From NCBI GenBank assembly GCA_029259715.1, contig JAJDEP010000019.1:186001-250000 (forward strand): a stretch of 64,000 bases of DNA. The letters run 5' to 3'. The stretch comes from Planctomycetota bacterium. GTDB lineage: Bacteria > Planctomycetota > B15-G4. Position 1 is the first letter of the stretch, and each line of letters begins with the position of its first letter. The notes under the pieces are model-generated. The model did no database searches. It was not told the origin of the DNA and saw nothing but the letters and a program-made list of their open reading frames with translations. Positions 29,827 through 36,873 of the stretch are shown here, piece by piece. The position numbers and the translations under genes are program-made.

Positions 29827-31215
29827 ATGAACAAGCGCACGATCCGAGACGTTCGGGGAGTCCTCGACCAGCACGCCGAGCGGCGCTCACTGAAGGACTA
29901 CGCGCGGGCCGGCAAGCAAACCGTGCGCGCCATCTCCGAGGAGAAGTTGCTCGGCCTGCTCGAGGCCGTGGTCGACGAAGCCATCAGCAGCGAGGCCGGC
30001 GCCGTCGCCAAGCGCGACCGCGGACGCATCGTCGCAGCCGCGCGCGACCAGCTCGGCAAGGTCATGAAGACCCAGGGCGACCTCTCCGCCAAGATCGAGC
30101 GGCAAGCCGCCACCATCGACGAGTCGAACACGCGCATCGACGCCCTCGTCGCCGAGCGCGACGCGTTGCAGGCGCTCATCGACCAGAGCAAGCAGGCCGA
30201 GGAGAAGGCCACTCAGCAGACGGCCGAGGCTCAGCGCAAGGCCGAGCAGGCCACCGCCCGCGCCGACGAATCCGCCCGCGCCGCAGAGGAAGCGCAGCGC
30301 GCGGCGCAAGCGGCCGACACCCGTGCCGAGCAGGCCGAGCGCGAAGCCGCCGAGGCGACCCAGCAGGCCGAGCAGGCCTCCCGCGAGCGCGACTTGCTGC
30401 GGACCGAGACACTGGCCGCGGTGAAGGCCGCCGAGGCCGCCACCGAGAAGCAGCGCCAGGCCGCCTCGGAAAACCTGCGCATGTCCGACGAGACCATCGC
30501 CAAGCTCGAGGGCGAGTTGGGCGCCGTGCGCTCCGACCGTCGTCGCGACAAGGACCGGACGGCGGCGCTGCAGACCGAGGTACGCGAGCGGGATGAGAAG
30601 TTCGCCCAGCTCAAGGGCGAGTTCGGCGAGCTGCGCGCCCGGCTCGAGGAGCGCACCGCTGCGCTCGCCGCGGCCCGCGAGGAGCTGGCGCGGCAGTCCC
30701 AGGAGTTGAGGGTCGCCCAGGAACTCTCGCGCGAGGCCGTCGCGGCCCAGGAGACAGCCCGGCACCACGACTCCGAGCAGGCGCAGACGGCCATCGCCGC
30801 GTTGCAGCGCGAGCTGCACGCCATGCAGGGCACCCTCGGCGCCATGGCCGAACAGCGCGGGCCGGACGACTCCACCGTCGAGGCCATCGTGGCGCGCCTC
30901 TCCCATCAGGAGCAGGCGGCGGCCCGCGACCTCGAGAAGCGCTTCGACGAGACGTTGGGGCGCGCGCTGAGCGAGGTCGAGCGGTCGCTGCGGCGCGTGA
31001 GCGCGCGGCCCGTGGACCACCCCGTCGAGGCCACCGACGCTCTGGTGAGCAAGATCTTCGACCAGGGCGCCGCCGCCAGCAACTACGACCAGCTCGGCAT
31101 CGAGGTGCGCCGCTCGCCGCGCCGCATCGGCAACAGCATCGAGCAACTCCGGGCCCTGCGCGGCAAGCGTGCCCCGTCGCCCGACTCCCCCCCGCCCTCC
31201 GAAACACCCTCCTAG
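29827..31215 (+). CDS. Long coiled-coil protein, first gene of an actin-like operon
   Basis: A 462-aa soluble protein with no signal or membrane segment. A short N-terminal domain (RTIRDVRGVLDQHAERRSLK, about 1-75) precedes a long alanine/glutamate/glutamine-rich coiled coil (about 75-400, e.g. AEQAEREAAEATQQAEQASR). A conserved-looking C-terminal domain contains VSKIFDQGAAASNYDQLGI and SPRRIGNSIEQLRAL, and a Pro/Ser tail ends the protein. The start has GGGAGGGG upstream. It is followed after 13 nt by an actin-like ATPase gene, itself with AGAGGAG at its start. A filament-binding or adaptor role for the actin-like protein is inferred from the context only. Confidence 0.8.
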   Translation: MNKRTIRDVRGVLDQHAERRSLKDYARAGKQTVRAISEEKLLGLLEAVVDEAISSEAGAVAKRDRGRIVAAARDQLGKVMKTQGDLSAKIERQAATIDESNTRIDALVAERDALQALIDQSKQAEEKATQQTAEAQRKAEQATARADESARAAEEAQRAAQAADTRAEQAEREAAEATQQAEQASRERDLLRTETLAAVKAAEAATEKQRQAASENLRMSDETIAKLEGELGAVRSDRRRDKDRTAALQTEVRERDEKFAQLKGEFGELRARLEERTAALAAAREELARQSQELRVAQELSREAVAAQETARHHDSEQAQTAIAALQRELHAMQGTLGAMAEQRGPDDSTVEAIVARLSHQEQAAARDLEKRFDETLGRALSEVERSLRRVSARPVDHPVEATDALVSKIFDQGAAASNYDQLGIEVRRSPRRIGNSIEQLRALRGKRAPSPDSPPPSETPS

Positions 31216-31228
31216 AGGAGCCGTCACC

Positions 31229-32407
31229 ATGGCCGCGGACACCGACTCGGTGAAGGTCCCCGAAAACTCGTCCCCTGAGCACCCGGCGACCCCCAGCGCC
31301 CAGGGCAAGTCAGACACCAAGGGCAACGGCCCCACCAAGGGCATGGCGGCCACCCAGGGCGCGTCCGGCAACGTCTCCCCCACCGACGACATCGTGGCCC
31401 TCGGCCGCGGGCTCGACGTGGGCACGGCGAACCTGCTGTCGGCGGCCCAGGTCGGCGACGGCGAGCCGGTGGTGCGGGCCGAGCGCAACGCCTTCCTGCA
31501 GCTGCCCAAGGAGTTCACGGTCAACCGGCAGATGCTGACCAACCTCAAGGTGCCCTACGTCGCCTACGAAGACCGGCTCTACGTGCTCGGCAACTCGTCC
31601 TTCGACCTGGCCAACCTGCTCAGCAACGAAGTCCGGCGCCCCATGCTGGGCGGCTTCCTCTCGCCCAACGAGCGGGACGCCATCCCCATGATCCGTTTCA
31701 TGCTCGAGCGGCTGCTGGGCGAGCCCAACGAGCCGGGCGAGGCCTGCTGGTACAGCCTGCCGGCGCCGTCCATCGACTCCGACAACGACACCGTCTACCA
31801 CGAGGGCGTCGTCTCCAGCCTGCTCAACAAGCTGGGCTTCACGCCGCGCCCGATCAACGAAGGCCACGCCATCGTCTACAGCGAGCTGGGCGACTCCGAC
31901 TTCACCGGCATCACGGTGAGCTGCGGCGGCGGCATGTTCAACGTGTGCGTCGCCTACCGCGCCATCCCGGCGGTCACCTTCTCGGTGTCCCGCGGCGGCG
32001 ACTGGATCGACGAGCACGTGGCCCGGGTCATGGGCATCCCGCGCACCCGCGCCACGGCCATCAAGGAGGGCTCCACCTCCGAGGGCCGCGGGCTCAACCT
32101 GGCCGCCCCCCAGACCCGCGAGGAGGAGGCCGTGGTGCTTTACTACCGCAGCCTGATCTCCTACGTCCTGCAGAACCTCAAGCAGCGCTTCGAGCTGGCC
32201 CAGGACGTGCCCCAGTTCAGCGAACCGGTCGAGGTGGTGGTCGCCGGTGGAACCAGCCTGGTGGGCGGATTCACCGAGATCTTCGCCGAAGAGCTGCGAT
32301 CGGTTTCCCTGCCCATCCCCATCAAGGGTGTGCGCCGGGCCGACGATGCCTTTACTTCGGTGGTGCGCGGCTGCCTCATCGCGGCAGCCCTCGACGAGCA
32401 GGGTTGA
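31229..32407 (+). CDS. Actin/MreB-fold ATPase, divergent
   Basis: A 392-aa protein. The first ~55 residues are disordered and Lys/Ser/Pro-rich. The actin-fold core follows: phosphate-1 loop GRGLDVGTANLLSAA (about 60-74), a connect-1-like Glu in INEGHAIVYSELG, phosphate-2-like ITVSCGGGMFNVCVAY, and adenosine motif VVVAGGTSLVGGFTEIF. The phosphate-2 loop lacks the usual Asp (DIGGGT-like becomes SCGGGM), so hydrolysis may be altered. No membrane-binding hydrophobic N-terminus is seen. It lies 13 nt after a coiled-coil gene and 58 nt before a 141-aa gene. MreB proper, ParM or MamK are not matched closely. Confidence 0.8.
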   Translation: MAADTDSVKVPENSSPEHPATPSAQGKSDTKGNGPTKGMAATQGASGNVSPTDDIVALGRGLDVGTANLLSAAQVGDGEPVVRAERNAFLQLPKEFTVNRQMLTNLKVPYVAYEDRLYVLGNSSFDLANLLSNEVRRPMLGGFLSPNERDAIPMIRFMLERLLGEPNEPGEACWYSLPAPSIDSDNDTVYHEGVVSSLLNKLGFTPRPINEGHAIVYSELGDSDFTGITVSCGGGMFNVCVAYRAIPAVTFSVSRGGDWIDEHVARVMGIPRTRATAIKEGSTSEGRGLNLAAPQTREEEAVVLYYRSLISYVLQNLKQRFELAQDVPQFSEPVEVVVAGGTSLVGGFTEIFAEELRSVSLPIPIKGVRRADDAFTSVVRGCLIAAALDEQG

Positions 32408-32465: not shown

Positions 32466-32891
32466 ATGGCCGACAAGCCCGACGCCCAGGACGGCGACTT
32501 CATCCTCAGGCTCTACGAAATGCGCCGCGAGCCGGTGCTGCGTGAGATGCGCGACCGCCTGAACTTCGAGTTCTGGCCCAAGAGCATCGACGACATCGTC
32601 GCCGTGCAGCAGGACATGGGCAGCCCCATGAACACCGCCTGGCGCCAGGTGCCCAGCTACTGGGAGATGGTCTACGGCATGGGGTCGTCCGGCATCGTGA
32701 ACGCCGAGTACCTGGTGCAGAACAACGGCGAGGGCCTGCTGACCTGGTGCAAGGTCGCACCTCACCTCGACAAGCTGCGCGATGACAACCCGCGCGCATT
32801 CCTCAACACCGAGTGGGCCGCCACCAAGACCGACATCGGCCGCCAGTACGTCGAGCTGCTCCAGCAGCGCTTCGGCGAGCAGTTGGCCTGA
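32466..32891 (+). CDS. Small soluble helical protein, third gene of the actin-like operon
   Basis: A 141-aa protein I do not recognise. No signal peptide. Mostly helical with conserved-looking aromatic/acidic blocks: LYEMRREPVLREMRDRLNFE, then WRQVPSYWEMVYGMGSSGIV, and a C-terminal helix GRQYVELLQQRFGEQL. It lies 58 nt after the actin-like ATPase gene and 77 nt before the redoxin gene. By position it could be a regulator or cargo of the filament, but no direct evidence exists. Confidence 0.72.
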   Translation: MADKPDAQDGDFILRLYEMRREPVLREMRDRLNFEFWPKSIDDIVAVQQDMGSPMNTAWRQVPSYWEMVYGMGSSGIVNAEYLVQNNGEGLLTWCKVAPHLDKLRDDNPRAFLNTEWAATKTDIGRQYVELLQQRFGEQLA

Positions 32892-32968
32892 CCGCCGCTG
32901 GGCGGCCGATTCCACGAAACGGCGGGAGCACCGGTCGCATCGGAGCCCTCGTCCCCAGGAGCACCCCC

Positions 32969-34228
32969 ATGACCACCGCACTCCTTCGCATGTTGGCAGC
33001 CCTCGCCCTGGCGCTCGGCATGACGCCCGACGCGTCCGCCCAGGACGACCGGGCCCCGGACGAAAGCGTCGACGCCGAGCTGCCCGGCTACTACCGCTTC
33101 TACAAGAAGGCCGGCGACCAGACCGTGCTGCCCGCCGAGGCCCGCCGGGACGGCGCGCTCTCGGACGGCGAGCCGGCCACGCTGAAGGTCGAGTACCCGC
33201 TGCCCGACCTGGCCCTGCCCGACGTCGACGGCACCCTCGTGGGCCTGCGCGACTGGGTGGGCAAGAAGAACCTGGTCATCGTCAACTACCGCACCTGGTG
33301 GTGACTGTATTGCCTCCGGCAGCTCGTCGAGCTGCAAGACCACTACGACGCGTTCGCAGCTCTCGACACCGAGCTGCTGGCCGTCGCCCAACTCGAGCGT
33401 GATCCGGCCCTGCTCGCGCGCATCAACGGCTTCGTCAAGAACGACTTCCCCAACGTGGCCGACCGCGACGAGGTCATGGGCGAACACTTCAGCGTCTTCG
33501 ACATCTACGTGGCCGACACCGAGGGCGTCGTGCGACGTCACCTGAAGGGCAGCAAGGAAGCACGCCCGCGGCTCGACCATGTCCTCGAAGCCGTGGCCGA
33601 GGTCGCCGGGAAGCGCGCGCCGCGCATGCACAGCGAGTTCGGGAAGATCGTGGTGGAGCCCTCCCGTGGCGTGAAGGCCGCGCGACGCGCCGCCGCCGAG
33701 GCCATCACCGCCGGGACGGCCGCACCGGCCGACGTCTTCGCGGCGCCCGGCCGTGGCGCGGGCGACGCTCATGCGCCGGCCGTGCTCGACGCCCGCTGGA
33801 TGTGGTCGCACCCCGAGACCCGCCCCGGCGACACGCTCAAGCTGGCGCTCATGCCACGGGTGGCCCACGGCTTCCACGTCTACGCTCACGACGAGGGGCG
33901 CATGTCGCCGTTCACGGTGGAGGTCGACCTCCCCGACGGTCTCGAGCTGGCGCAGCCCATACGCCACCCCGCGGGCACCACGACCCGTGACCCGGTGCTC
34001 GACATCGACCTGTCCATGCACTCCGGCGACATCCCCTTGCCGGCCCTCGTGCTGCGGGCCTTCGACGACGTCGAACCCGGTGAGCTCGAGGTGGTCGTGC
34101 GCTTCTCCTACCAGGCTTGCAACGACGCCATCTGTCTCGCACCGGCGACGCAGGAGCTGCGCCTGACGGTGCCCATCGTCGCGGCGGGCACCGAACGCGG
34201 GCAGGTCTTCGGCTGGCAGGGCTGGTGA
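32969..34228 (+). CDS. Probable selenoprotein: redoxin fused to DsbD-alpha-like domain (in-frame TGA)
   Basis: A single TGA at 33302-33304 interrupts a 419-aa reading frame. Read as Sec it gives a U-x-x-C active site: NLVIVNYRTWW, Sec112, LYC with Cys115, then LRQLVELQDHYDAFAALDTE. This is the AhpC/TlpA-type thioredoxin active site after the beta strand. Signal peptide: LLRMLAALALALGMTPDASA. The C-terminal half (about 270-415) matches the DsbD N-terminal alpha domain: RVAHGFHVYAHDEG, and YQACNDAICLAPATQEL with a Cys pair. The start has AGGAG seven bases upstream. The end overlaps the next gene as GTGA. An exported thiol/selenol oxidoreductase with an on-board thiol-donor domain is inferred. 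A conventional call would be two broken genes. Confidence 0.8.
33302..33335 (+). promoter_or_regulatory. Candidate bacterial SECIS element
   Basis: After the TGA come 14 unpaired bases, then GCAGCTC (33319-33325), a GTC loop (33326-33328) and GAGCTGC (33329-33335): a perfect 7-bp stem. The loop begins with G and lies 21 nt after the TGA. This fits the known bacterial SECIS layout, with a G near the start of the apical loop at this distance. Opening the closing C-G pair would give a 5-nt loop CGTCG. Confidence 0.6.
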
Positions 34229-36873
34229 GGTCGACGGCGGCAGTCGCCCTGACCCTGCTGCTGGTCGCGGGCGCCTGCTCCGCTCCGGGCGGTCCGGGCG
34301 GCGCCGCGACTTCCGGCCATGCGGACGACACTGCCGGCGGCGCTGCTGCGGCCGACGACGGCCTGCCGTCCATCGCCGAGAAGACCGCCGGCTGGGAACG
34401 TCGGGACGGCCTGCTCACCACCTGGATCGATGCCGACGGCGGCGCGGTGTGGCTGCAACTGCCGCCGCCCGACGGCCCCCGCGGCGAGTGCGCCCGGGTG
34501 CTGGCGTACGACGGCCTGCGCACCGGGCTCGGCAGCAACCCCGTGGGCCTCGACCGCGGACGCCTGGGCGAGTCGCGCCTGCTCGTGTTGCGTCGCTTCG
34601 GCCCCAAGGTCTTGTTCGAGCAGCCCAACCTGCGCTTCCGGGCGAGCAGCGATCGGGACGTCGAGGTCACGGCCGCCGAGGAGTCCTTCGCCACGTCGGT
34701 CATCTGGGGCGCCGAGATCGCCGCCCTCGACGACGACGGGGGCGCTCTCGTCGACCTCACGTCGTTCCTGGTGCGCGACGCCCACGGGGCCGCCGCCACC
34801 CTGACGGCCACCGGCCAGGGCCCCTGGCAGCTCGACCCGGCCCGTTCGGCCCTGCTCCCCGACGCCTGCCTGGCCTTCCCCGACAACCTCGAGTTCGAGG
34901 CGCTGCTCACCTTCGCGGGCAGCGCCCCCGGGGGCCACGTGGCCTCCACGGCGCCCGACGCCCGGGCGGTCACGCTGCGCACGCATCAGTCGCTGGTGCG
35001 GCTGCCCGACGACGCCTTCCGCACCCGCGACTTCGATCCCCGGGCCGGCGGCGCCTCGTACTACGGCGCGGACTTCCTCGACTACTCGGCGCCCCTCGGG
35101 ACGCCCCTCGAACGTCAGTTCGCCGTGCGGCACCGCCTGCAGCGCACCGAACCCACGGCCCCGGTCTCCCGCGTGGTCGAGCCCATCGTCTACTACGTCG
35201 ACCGCGGCGTGCCCGAGCCCGTCCGCAGCGCCTTGCTGGACGGGGCGCGCTGGTGGGAGCAGGCCTTCGAGGAGGCCGGGTTCGTCGACGCCTACCGCGT
35301 CGAGCTGCTGCCCGAGGGCGTCCACCCCCTTGACGTGCGCTACCACGTGATCACCTGGGTGCACCGCTCGACCCGCGGCTGGTCCTACGGCGGCGCCGTG
35401 GCCGACCCGCGCACCGGCGAGATCGTCAAGGGTCACGTGTCGCTGGGATCGCTGCGCGTGCGCCAGGATGAGCTGCTCTTCGAAGGCCTGCTCGGCGTGG
35501 CGAACACCGGCAGCGGGCGCCCCGACGACCCCATCGAGCTGGCCCTCGCGCGCATCCGCCAGCTCGCCGCCCACGAGGTGGGCCACACGCTCGGGCTGTC
35601 GCACAACTTCGCGGCGAGCACCTACGCCGGGCGCGCCTCGGTGATGGACTACCCGGCGCCACTGATCGAGCTCGATCAGCGCGGGGAGCTCGACGTGAGC
35701 CGGGCCTACGCCCAGGGACTCGGCGCCTGGGACCGCTTCGCCATCCTGCACCTGTACGGACAGCCGCCCGGCGGCGACCCGGCCGACGAGGCGGCGTGGC
35801 TGAACGGCCTGGTCGAGCGCTCCGTGGCCGACGGGATGCTCTACCTCTCGGATGCCGACGCCCGGCCCGCCGGCGCCGCCCACCCCCTCGCCAACCTGTG
35901 GGACAACGGCGCCGACCCCGCCGAAGCCCTGCGCACGGCGCTCGACGTCCGCCGTGTGGCGCTGAGCCGCTTCGGCATGGGCAACCTCGCCCCAGGGCGC
36001 CCCCTGGCCCGACTGCACGAGGTCTTCGTGCCGGTCTACTTCCATCACCGCTATCAGCTGGAGGCGGCGATCAAGATCGTGGGCGGCGTCGAGTACGGCT
36101 TCGCAACGGTCGGGGGCCCCCTCACCGCCGACGGCCGCCCGGCCTCGCGCCCCACCGATCCCGAGTGGCAGCTGCGCGCACTGGACCTCATCCTCGATGC
36201 CCTCGAGCCGGCTCACCTCGACATCTCCGACGAGATCTCGGCCCTGCTTCTGCCCCGGCCGCCGGGTCACCCGCCCCACCGCGAGCTCCTCGACGGCCAC
36301 ACCGACCCGGTCTTCGACCCGCTGGCCGCCGCCGCCACGGCCGCGCGTCTGGTCGTCGCGGGACTGCTGCAGCCCGAGCGCTGCGCCCGGGTGCTCGACC
36401 ACGCCCGCCGCGACGAGAACTTCCCGTCGCTGAGCACGGTCCTCGACGCCCTGTGGGGCCGGGCGTTCCCCCGCATGCCGTCACAGACACTCGACGAGAT
36501 GACGGGGGGTGAACCCGAGCGACTCGCGGCCACCCGCCGCGCCGTGCAACGCGTCGTGGTCGACGGGCTCATCGCCCTGGCCCGCGACACCCGGGCCGCG
36601 CCAGCCGTGCGCGCCGAAGTGGAGGCGCGCCTCATGACGAGCGAGCGGCTCCTGAGGGGAGCGGTTGACCGCGGGAGCATGGGGCCGGACTACCAGCACC
36701 TCTTGGTCCTGCGCCACATGCGGGCGCTGAGCGACGACATCCGCCGTCACCTCGAGCGACAGGGCGACCTTCCCGCCGCGCCCTCGACCGCCGCCCCGCC
36801 GCCGCCCGGAAGCCCCATCGGCGCCGGCGCCCGCACCGACCTCTGCTCGTGGATTTCCTCGGAGTCGCCATGA
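34225..36873 (+). CDS. Zinc metallopeptidase lipoprotein, DUF5117/DUF4953 type
   Basis: An 882-aa exported peptidase. Lipobox VAGAC. The DUF5117-like N-terminal half is followed by a metzincin-like zinc motif AAHEVGHTLGLSHNFAAS and, shortly after, the Met-turn-like VMDYPAP. Zinc ligands are the three His of HExxHxxGxxH. The GTG start overlaps the redoxin gene's stop (GTGA), so the two should be coupled; the M28 peptidase gene then overlaps by ATGA. Relatives are large secreted zinc proteases of poorly known substrate. The alternative long in-frame N-terminus was rejected because it is redoxin coding sequence in another frame. Confidence 0.88.
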   Translation: MRSTAAVALTLLLVAGACSAPGGPGGAATSGHADDTAGGAAAADDGLPSIAEKTAGWERRDGLLTTWIDADGGAVWLQLPPPDGPRGECARVLAYDGLRTGLGSNPVGLDRGRLGESRLLVLRRFGPKVLFEQPNLRFRASSDRDVEVTAAEESFATSVIWGAEIAALDDDGGALVDLTSFLVRDAHGAAATLTATGQGPWQLDPARSALLPDACLAFPDNLEFEALLTFAGSAPGGHVASTAPDARAVTLRTHQSLVRLPDDAFRTRDFDPRAGGASYYGADFLDYSAPLGTPLERQFAVRHRLQRTEPTAPVSRVVEPIVYYVDRGVPEPVRSALLDGARWWEQAFEEAGFVDAYRVELLPEGVHPLDVRYHVITWVHRSTRGWSYGGAVADPRTGEIVKGHVSLGSLRVRQDELLFEGLLGVANTGSGRPDDPIELALARIRQLAAHEVGHTLGLSHNFAASTYAGRASVMDYPAPLIELDQRGELDVSRAYAQGLGAWDRFAILHLYGQPPGGDPADEAAWLNGLVERSVADGMLYLSDADARPAGAAHPLANLWDNGADPAEALRTALDVRRVALSRFGMGNLAPGRPLARLHEVFVPVYFHHRYQLEAAIKIVGGVEYGFATVGGPLTADGRPASRPTDPEWQLRALDLILDALEPAHLDISDEISALLLPRPPGHPPHRELLDGHTDPVFDPLAAAATAARLVVAGLLQPERCARVLDHARRDENFPSLSTVLDALWGRAFPRMPSQTLDEMTGGEPERLAATRRAVQRVVVDGLIALARDTRAAPAVRAEVEARLMTSERLLRGAVDRGSMGPDYQHLLVLRHMRALSDDIRRHLERQGDLPAAPSTAAPPPPGSPIGAGARTDLCSWISSESP

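Follow-up and report, generated by a model that had tools for sequence, protein, structure and literature searches.

A candidate exported selenoprotein combining a selenocysteine redoxin with a DsbD-alpha-like domain in a planctomycete genome

The window analysed here, a 64,000-nucleotide stretch of DNA, corresponds to positions 186001–250000 of contig C11 in a Planctomycetota genome of 4.23 Mb (20 contigs, 92% complete). On its forward strand, the reading frame at 32969–34228 contains a sole internal TGA (33302–33304, residue 112, in the context RTWW-U-LYC) and closes with the terminal stop TGA at 34226–34228 (residue position 420). Along the product, an apparent signal peptide, recognised by eye, is followed by a redoxin domain of the AhpC-TSA type, which a linker connects to a DsbD_N domain; the only Cys-type residues of the whole chain are U112, C115, C384, and C389. 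The start of the next gene, also placed by eye, overlaps the stop of the selenoprotein gene as GTGA. The features of the locus are as follows.

32957..32961, + strand: AGGAG, a Shine-Dalgarno-like sequence 7 nt upstream of the ATG (sequence reading)
32969..34228, + strand: predicted selenoprotein gene encoding 419 residues, residue 112 being Sec; full-length members in five further genomes
32969..33043, + strand: probable signal peptide, residues about 1–25 (judged by eye)
33194..33535, + strand: redoxin domain (AhpC-TSA), residues 76–189 (Pfam PF00578, 3.4e-11; model resembles Prx, BCP, and ResA structures)
33302..33304, + strand: TGA predicted to be read as selenocysteine, U112 of UxxC (opposite the first active-site Cys in ResA by the family profile; Cys in nine control relatives)
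33311..33313, + strand: Cys115 of UxxC, presumed resolving residue (sequence and family alignment)
33319..33335, + strand: putative SECIS hairpin, 7-bp stem with loop GUC (folding, model limits, covariation)
33824..34162, + strand: domain like DsbD_N (nDsbD, DsbD alpha), residues 286–398 (Pfam PF11412, Foldseek, hhalign with the host DsbD)
34118..34120, + strand: Cys384, first Cys of C-x4-C (sequence, hhalign with the host DsbD)
34133..34135, + strand: Cys389, second Cys of C-x4-C (sequence, hhalign with the host DsbD)
34225..36873, + strand: downstream gene with DUF5117 and Met-zincin DUF4953 (Pfam; GTG start judged by eye)

On the best reading of this sequence, the window protein would be an exported selenoprotein in which a Sec redoxin and a DsbD-alpha-like domain share one chain.

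The redoxin domain matched AhpC-TSA at 43.6 bits against a cut-off of 26, and one other member of the fusion family (L025) stayed below that cut-off at 22.9 bits. A fold search with the redoxin model returned Prx, BCP, and ResA structures. The redoxin family profile matched 102 PDB sequences at E≤0.001 with ResA at the top of the best 60 of these 102; by this profile alignment, the UxxC occupies the CxxC position of ResA, consistent with the TlpA/ResA family. That family is further marked by a cis-Pro before the next strand, and inspection by eye of 14 rows from the fusion and sister clades revealed no such thioredoxin-fold Pro. No NCBIfam model reached its cut-off for the three fusion members scanned. 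Compared with PxxxTxxC(U), given as the classical Prx active-site motif (PMC13188914), the window sequence VNYRTWW-U has Thr at −3 and no Pro at −7.

The in-frame TGA is found at the same codon in all six full-length members of the family, the window included, which come from six different genomes; four of the others were recovered among 294 genomes of the phylum and the fifth in a scan of genome contigs. Mean pairwise identity among the fusion members reached 35% upstream (residues 53–111) and 47% downstream (113–213) of the TGA, 23% in the linker (214–272), and 36% in the C-terminal domain (273–403). This conservation on both flanks of a TGA shared by six genomes argues against taking the TGA for a genuine stop or for an error, and the halves for a pseudogene or a pair of genes; we regard that reading as extremely improbable. 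A wider search of 392 Planctomycetota genomes with the redoxin alignment produced 60 matches in 50 genomes, with one in-frame TGA in 28 matches and none in 32. The TGA redoxins consist of 26 UxxC proteins, one UxxS protein (L079), and one Bcp-like protein (L077). Nine of the 32 TGA-free matches served as controls, two more (L073 and L075) being displayed only, and all nine carry Cys at the U position. A Cys version of the fusion itself was seen neither among five relatives from the genome-contig scan nor in the 392 phylum and 14 class genomes, about 20 TGA-free redoxin matches aside.

The host genome contains the full Sec machinery, with SelA (446.5 bits, cut-off 267.9), SelB (335.9 bits, cut-off 242.25), SelD (336.3 bits, cut-off 125), which carries an in-frame TGA of its own, and tRNA-Sec (70.9 bits, cut-off 47; ARAGORN verdict tRNA-SeC), a second tRNA-Sec match also lying above the cut-off at 49.5 bits. 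SelA, SelD, and tRNA-Sec are found within 6 kb on contig C15. SelA scored above its cut-off in 5/6 fusion genomes and in 21 of the 23 TGA-redoxin genomes searched, compared to 3/9 Cys-control genomes, with G188 left out of the comparison. The TGA-redoxin genomes with no SelA match, G135 and G164, are each 84% complete; G306, G121, and G338 combine a Cys redoxin with SelA above the cut-off, the latter two barely so.

Downstream of the TGA, the stem strands GCAGCTC (33319–33325) and GAGCTGC (33329–33335) enclose the loop GTC (33326–33328), whose G lies 21 nt past the TGA. With a 3-nt loop opening on G then U and a 7-bp stem, the hairpin falls inside the published limits for bacterial SECIS elements, namely a loop of 3–9 nt, a stem of 4–16 bp, G in loop position 1 or 2, and a distance of 16–37 nt from the UGA (PMC13188914). 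As a single sequence, its folding energy is unexceptional (z −1.63; 15/200 shuffles equally good), a point in favour of a true stop; because single-sequence folding was indecisive, we relied on covariation and on a synonymous-codon null. Across the 21 TGA genes sharing one hairpin register, pairing held in 97.3% of 147 cells, and two-sided changes occurred in five of the seven pairs. The covariation score of 0.339, compared with 0.010–0.071 for slid versions of the hairpin, was reached by 0/500 shuffles; the less extreme measures, pairs with two-sided changes and further pair types, were reached by 1/500 and 18/500, respectively. The pair count thus took in 21 of the 28 TGA sequences: L069, L071, L082, L084, L085, and L086 were excluded with a hairpin 3 nt later, and L077 was omitted from the pair count, the codon null, and the tree alike. 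The stem is almost invariant when the fusion genes are taken by themselves, so the covariation derives from the family at large. Under the codon null, which 27/28 TGA sequences entered and which strictly required a 3-nt loop with G in first place, the stem was significant at P≤0.05 in 4/6 fusion genes, 9/21 other TGA redoxins, and 0/9 Cys controls. L040, L050, and L055 fail the strict definition and carry GCAGCT-CGTGC-AGCTGC. A search with Rfam returned no SECIS match at the gathering cut-off and none at E 10.

Taken together, the covarying hairpin and the full Sec machinery speak further against a true stop, and the TGA at 33302–33304 is almost certainly read as Sec, a residue that we predict in the protein from its gene. 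The preliminary description, drawn from the letters alone, had placed this TGA at the first position of a UxxC in a redoxin and had judged the 7-bp hairpin with a G-first loop 21 nt downstream to fit a SECIS; both assignments held up, and the Cys relatives and Sec machinery whose absence it had named as refuting were found.

The C-terminal domain of the window protein matched DsbD_N (PF11412) at 27.8 bits over a cut-off of 25 (2.8e-6), so that the HMM comparison proposed in the preliminary description upheld its DsbD N-terminal-like domain with a Cys pair, here Cys384 and Cys389. With whole proteins, the match exceeded the cut-off in 3/6 members (window, L023, and L038); L022 reached 24.0 bits, and L024 and L025 gave no match. 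When the C-terminal domains were searched alone, 4/6 matched DsbD_N at E≤1 and two were not recognised by Pfam. The model of the window C-terminal domain (pLDDT 88, pTM 0.82; full-length model, pLDDT 76.9, pTM 0.74) matched eight PDB structures at E≤0.001, all of them nDsbD of Neisseria meningitidis, at modest TM values of 0.37–0.42 by query. A profile of the domain found no match among PDB sequences. The host also encodes a separate complete DsbD of 643 aa, with C-x4-C in its N-domain, a membrane part (PF02683), and a C-terminal CxxC, and hhalign aligned Cys384 and Cys389 with the Cys pair of this protein (96%, E 4.2e-9). A clear D-E-F-Y-G-like cap-loop motif, taken from E. coli nDsbD (PMC7347389), was not evident by eye in the domain.

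The C-x4-C pair is kept in 5/6 members. The exception, L024 (= L041) of genome G135, retains the TGA and the hairpin, and its loss of the pair indicates that the domain can persist without it. Such persistence, together with Pfam recognising only four of the six C-terminal domains, would suit a protein in which the Sec redoxin is real and the DsbD_N-like domain is a mere beta-sandwich serving in binding, stability, or placement, while direct reduction of the redoxin falls to DsbD or another partner. The same arrangement is favoured by the sister Sec redoxins described below, which carry an N-terminal domain of another kind, lacking a conserved Cys pair. However, the Cys pair in five of six members, spaced as in the host DsbD, and nDsbD as the best fold match both weigh against it, as does the sister domain, whose relation to DsbD_N was not supported (hhalign probability 6.5%, E 0.0056). 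We consider a purely structural domain rather unlikely, yet the most serious of the alternatives.

A phylogenetic tree built from 36 redoxin domains placed all six fusion genes in a single clade (99/97), joined (90/86) by a sister clade of eight Sec redoxins (98/88) that have the different N-terminal domain. An arrangement resembling the fusion in separate genes was found in Salinibacter ruber, where tlpA lies directly upstream of dsbD. The fusion aligned colinearly with the pair of genes, at E 3e-7 when the collection was searched and at E 5e-16 when just two sequences were compared. This was the single record among 72,556 in the plasmid collection search, and the phage search gave none. The adjacency in this one record hints at a possible origin of the fusion.

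cDsbD supplies electrons to nDsbD, from which they go on to DsbC, CcmG, and DsbG (PMC7347389), and nDsbD also reduces the thioredoxin-like domain of PilB (PMC6210582). Since nDsbD thus reduces thioredoxin-fold partners, the fused domain should by analogy reduce a selenenylsulfide in the redoxin and be recharged by DsbD. In the mechanism that we propose, UGA-112 would be decoded as Sec with the aid of the bacterial SECIS hairpin, and Sec112 would attack an oxidised substrate outside the cytoplasm, which may be a protein disulfide, a sulfenic acid, or a peroxide. Cys115 would then close a selenenylsulfide with U112, which Cys384 and Cys389 of the fused DsbD-alpha-like domain would reduce within the chain, and the C-terminal thioredoxin domain of the separate membrane DsbD of the host would in turn recharge the alpha-like domain. 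We judge this explanation as a whole, a Sec redoxin re-reduced in chain by its own DsbD-alpha-like Cys pair and fed by DsbD, to be reasonably probable, and we put the intrachain transfer from the Cys pair to the redoxin, which our analysis suggests, at very nearly the same level. The preliminary description had proposed donor and acceptor domains in one chain; the two domains do lie in one frame, and their joint working, with the Cys pair lost in L041, is a matter of inference.

The more specific picture of an exported selenoenzyme with its own copy of DsbD alpha, tied to the DsbD line as a one-chain relay and possibly acting as a peroxide or sulfenic-acid reductase, is a tentative one, somewhat short of an even chance. 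The enzyme is described as a possible reductase of this kind because it has neither the Pro of the Prx motif nor the cis-Pro of the thioredoxin fold. Against a relay stand the absence of the Cys pair in one of six members, the two of six C-terminal domains that escape Pfam, and the differing neighbours: no shared operon partner appeared in a set of 13 window ORFs and 10 ORFs at the loci of relatives, and the downstream genes in two relatives encode other hydrolases, an S9 peptidase (L038) and a sulfatase (L040).

Electrons might also run the other way or bypass the proposed route, from DsbD to the redoxin, on to the alpha-like domain and to further exported targets, or the protein might act as an oxidase or isomerase. 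Thiol exchange is reversible, which favours a reversed flow, and Sec usually marks a catalytic residue, which disfavours it. That nDsbD serves several partners is also in keeping with such a flow, whereas the order in DsbD is from cDsbD to nDsbD to the thioredoxin-fold partner (PMC7347389). We consider this reversed or bypassing flow improbable and retain the relay from the alpha-like domain to the redoxin.

To our knowledge, the electron supply of exported selenoenzymes is poorly known. Its union with a DsbD-alpha-like domain suggests that this Sec redoxin draws its electrons from DsbD, and, if true, the one-chain relay would plug selenium catalysis outside the cytoplasm directly into the DsbD reductant line. 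The fusion is a compact system that would let Sec, the Cys pair, and the domain be tested separately, and it belongs to a wider planctomycete set, in which nearly half of the redoxin matches carry an in-frame TGA and the one-register hairpins covary.

Prx-like selenoproteins with UxxC have long been known (PMC1088965, PMC2398784, PMC13188914), as have proteins in which a Sec Prx-like domain is fused to one bearing Cys (PMC2398784). The Prx-like thiol:disulfide oxidoreductase selenoproteins (Prx-like 1, GOS survey) share PF00578, UxxC, and a bacterial SECIS with the window protein (PMC13188914, PMC9312934, PMC2398784); their table entries name no DsbD_N, and the window protein differs in its two domains and its apparent export. 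The Sec Prx-like and Trx-like fusions of PMC2398784 are likewise joined to a further domain, in which conserved Cys are usual. Going by its description there, Unknown_3 has three Cys including a CxxC, in contrast to the one C-x4-C within DsbD_N of the window protein, which may coincide with Unknown_1 or Unknown_2 of the same paper. TsoB (NF045694, UxxxxU), labelled as rhodanese/DsbD fusion-like in one table entry, is also a selenoprotein with a DsbD-like label and differs in its rhodanese partner and two Sec; NF045694 was absent among the seven NCBIfam families that matched the window protein to E 1.

The C-terminal domain shares the Pfam match, the best fold, and the Cys pair with nDsbD (PF11412). 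Unlike DsbD, however, the window chain has no membrane part and no C-terminal Trx, and its domain follows a Sec redoxin. The tlpA and dsbD genes of Salinibacter ruber plasmid pSR116 have the same domain order, but they are separate genes encoding a Cys redoxin (WCDPC) and a full-size DsbD. PilB of Neisseria meningitidis likewise holds a Trx-like donor and reductase domains in one chain recharged via nDsbD, whereas the account of it in PMC6210582 names no Sec, and PilB has no DsbD_N of its own. In the main-text portions of the literature searched, we found no report of a Sec redoxin fused to DsbD_N (PMC13188914, PMC9312934, PMC5029168, PMC2398784, PMC1088965, PMC4807772), and PMC12013277 made no mention of terms for such a fusion. 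Of the earlier suggestion that no characterised protein was known to have this layout, the combination of Sec redoxin and DsbD_N stands as one for which no report was found, and the UxxC Prx-like selenoproteins and some related fusions were already known.

Several relatives merit separate mention. The host genome carries a second Sec redoxin, L078 (G000:C11:410095-410523, − strand), which falls in the sister clade with its extra N-terminal domain and has U-G-R-C and a 7-bp hairpin with loop GGA. The sister-clade redoxin with UxxS in place of UxxC (L079, G192:C41) also has a 7-bp hairpin. The Bcp-like L077 (G188) has its in-frame TGA at TPGU-TRE and a best stem of just 4 bp. In L068 (G020), a WUPPC redoxin with its TGA at 1435, a CxxCH haem-binding-like motif (ERTCTSCHAWG) lies upstream in frame, so that this gene possibly encodes a fusion of cytochrome c and a Sec redoxin. 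Three Cys redoxins of one genus (L061, L062, and L063) have a 7-bp stem with a G-first 3-nt loop at the SECIS place; under codon choice this hairpin had P 0.20–0.25, and it is possibly a relic of lost Sec or a product of chance. Within the window, upstream of the selenoprotein gene, the frame at 31169–32404 (+ strand) gave a strong Pfam match to Volactin (2e-84). Volactin is known from archaea; here its gene is followed by a DUF4760 gene at 32466–32891.
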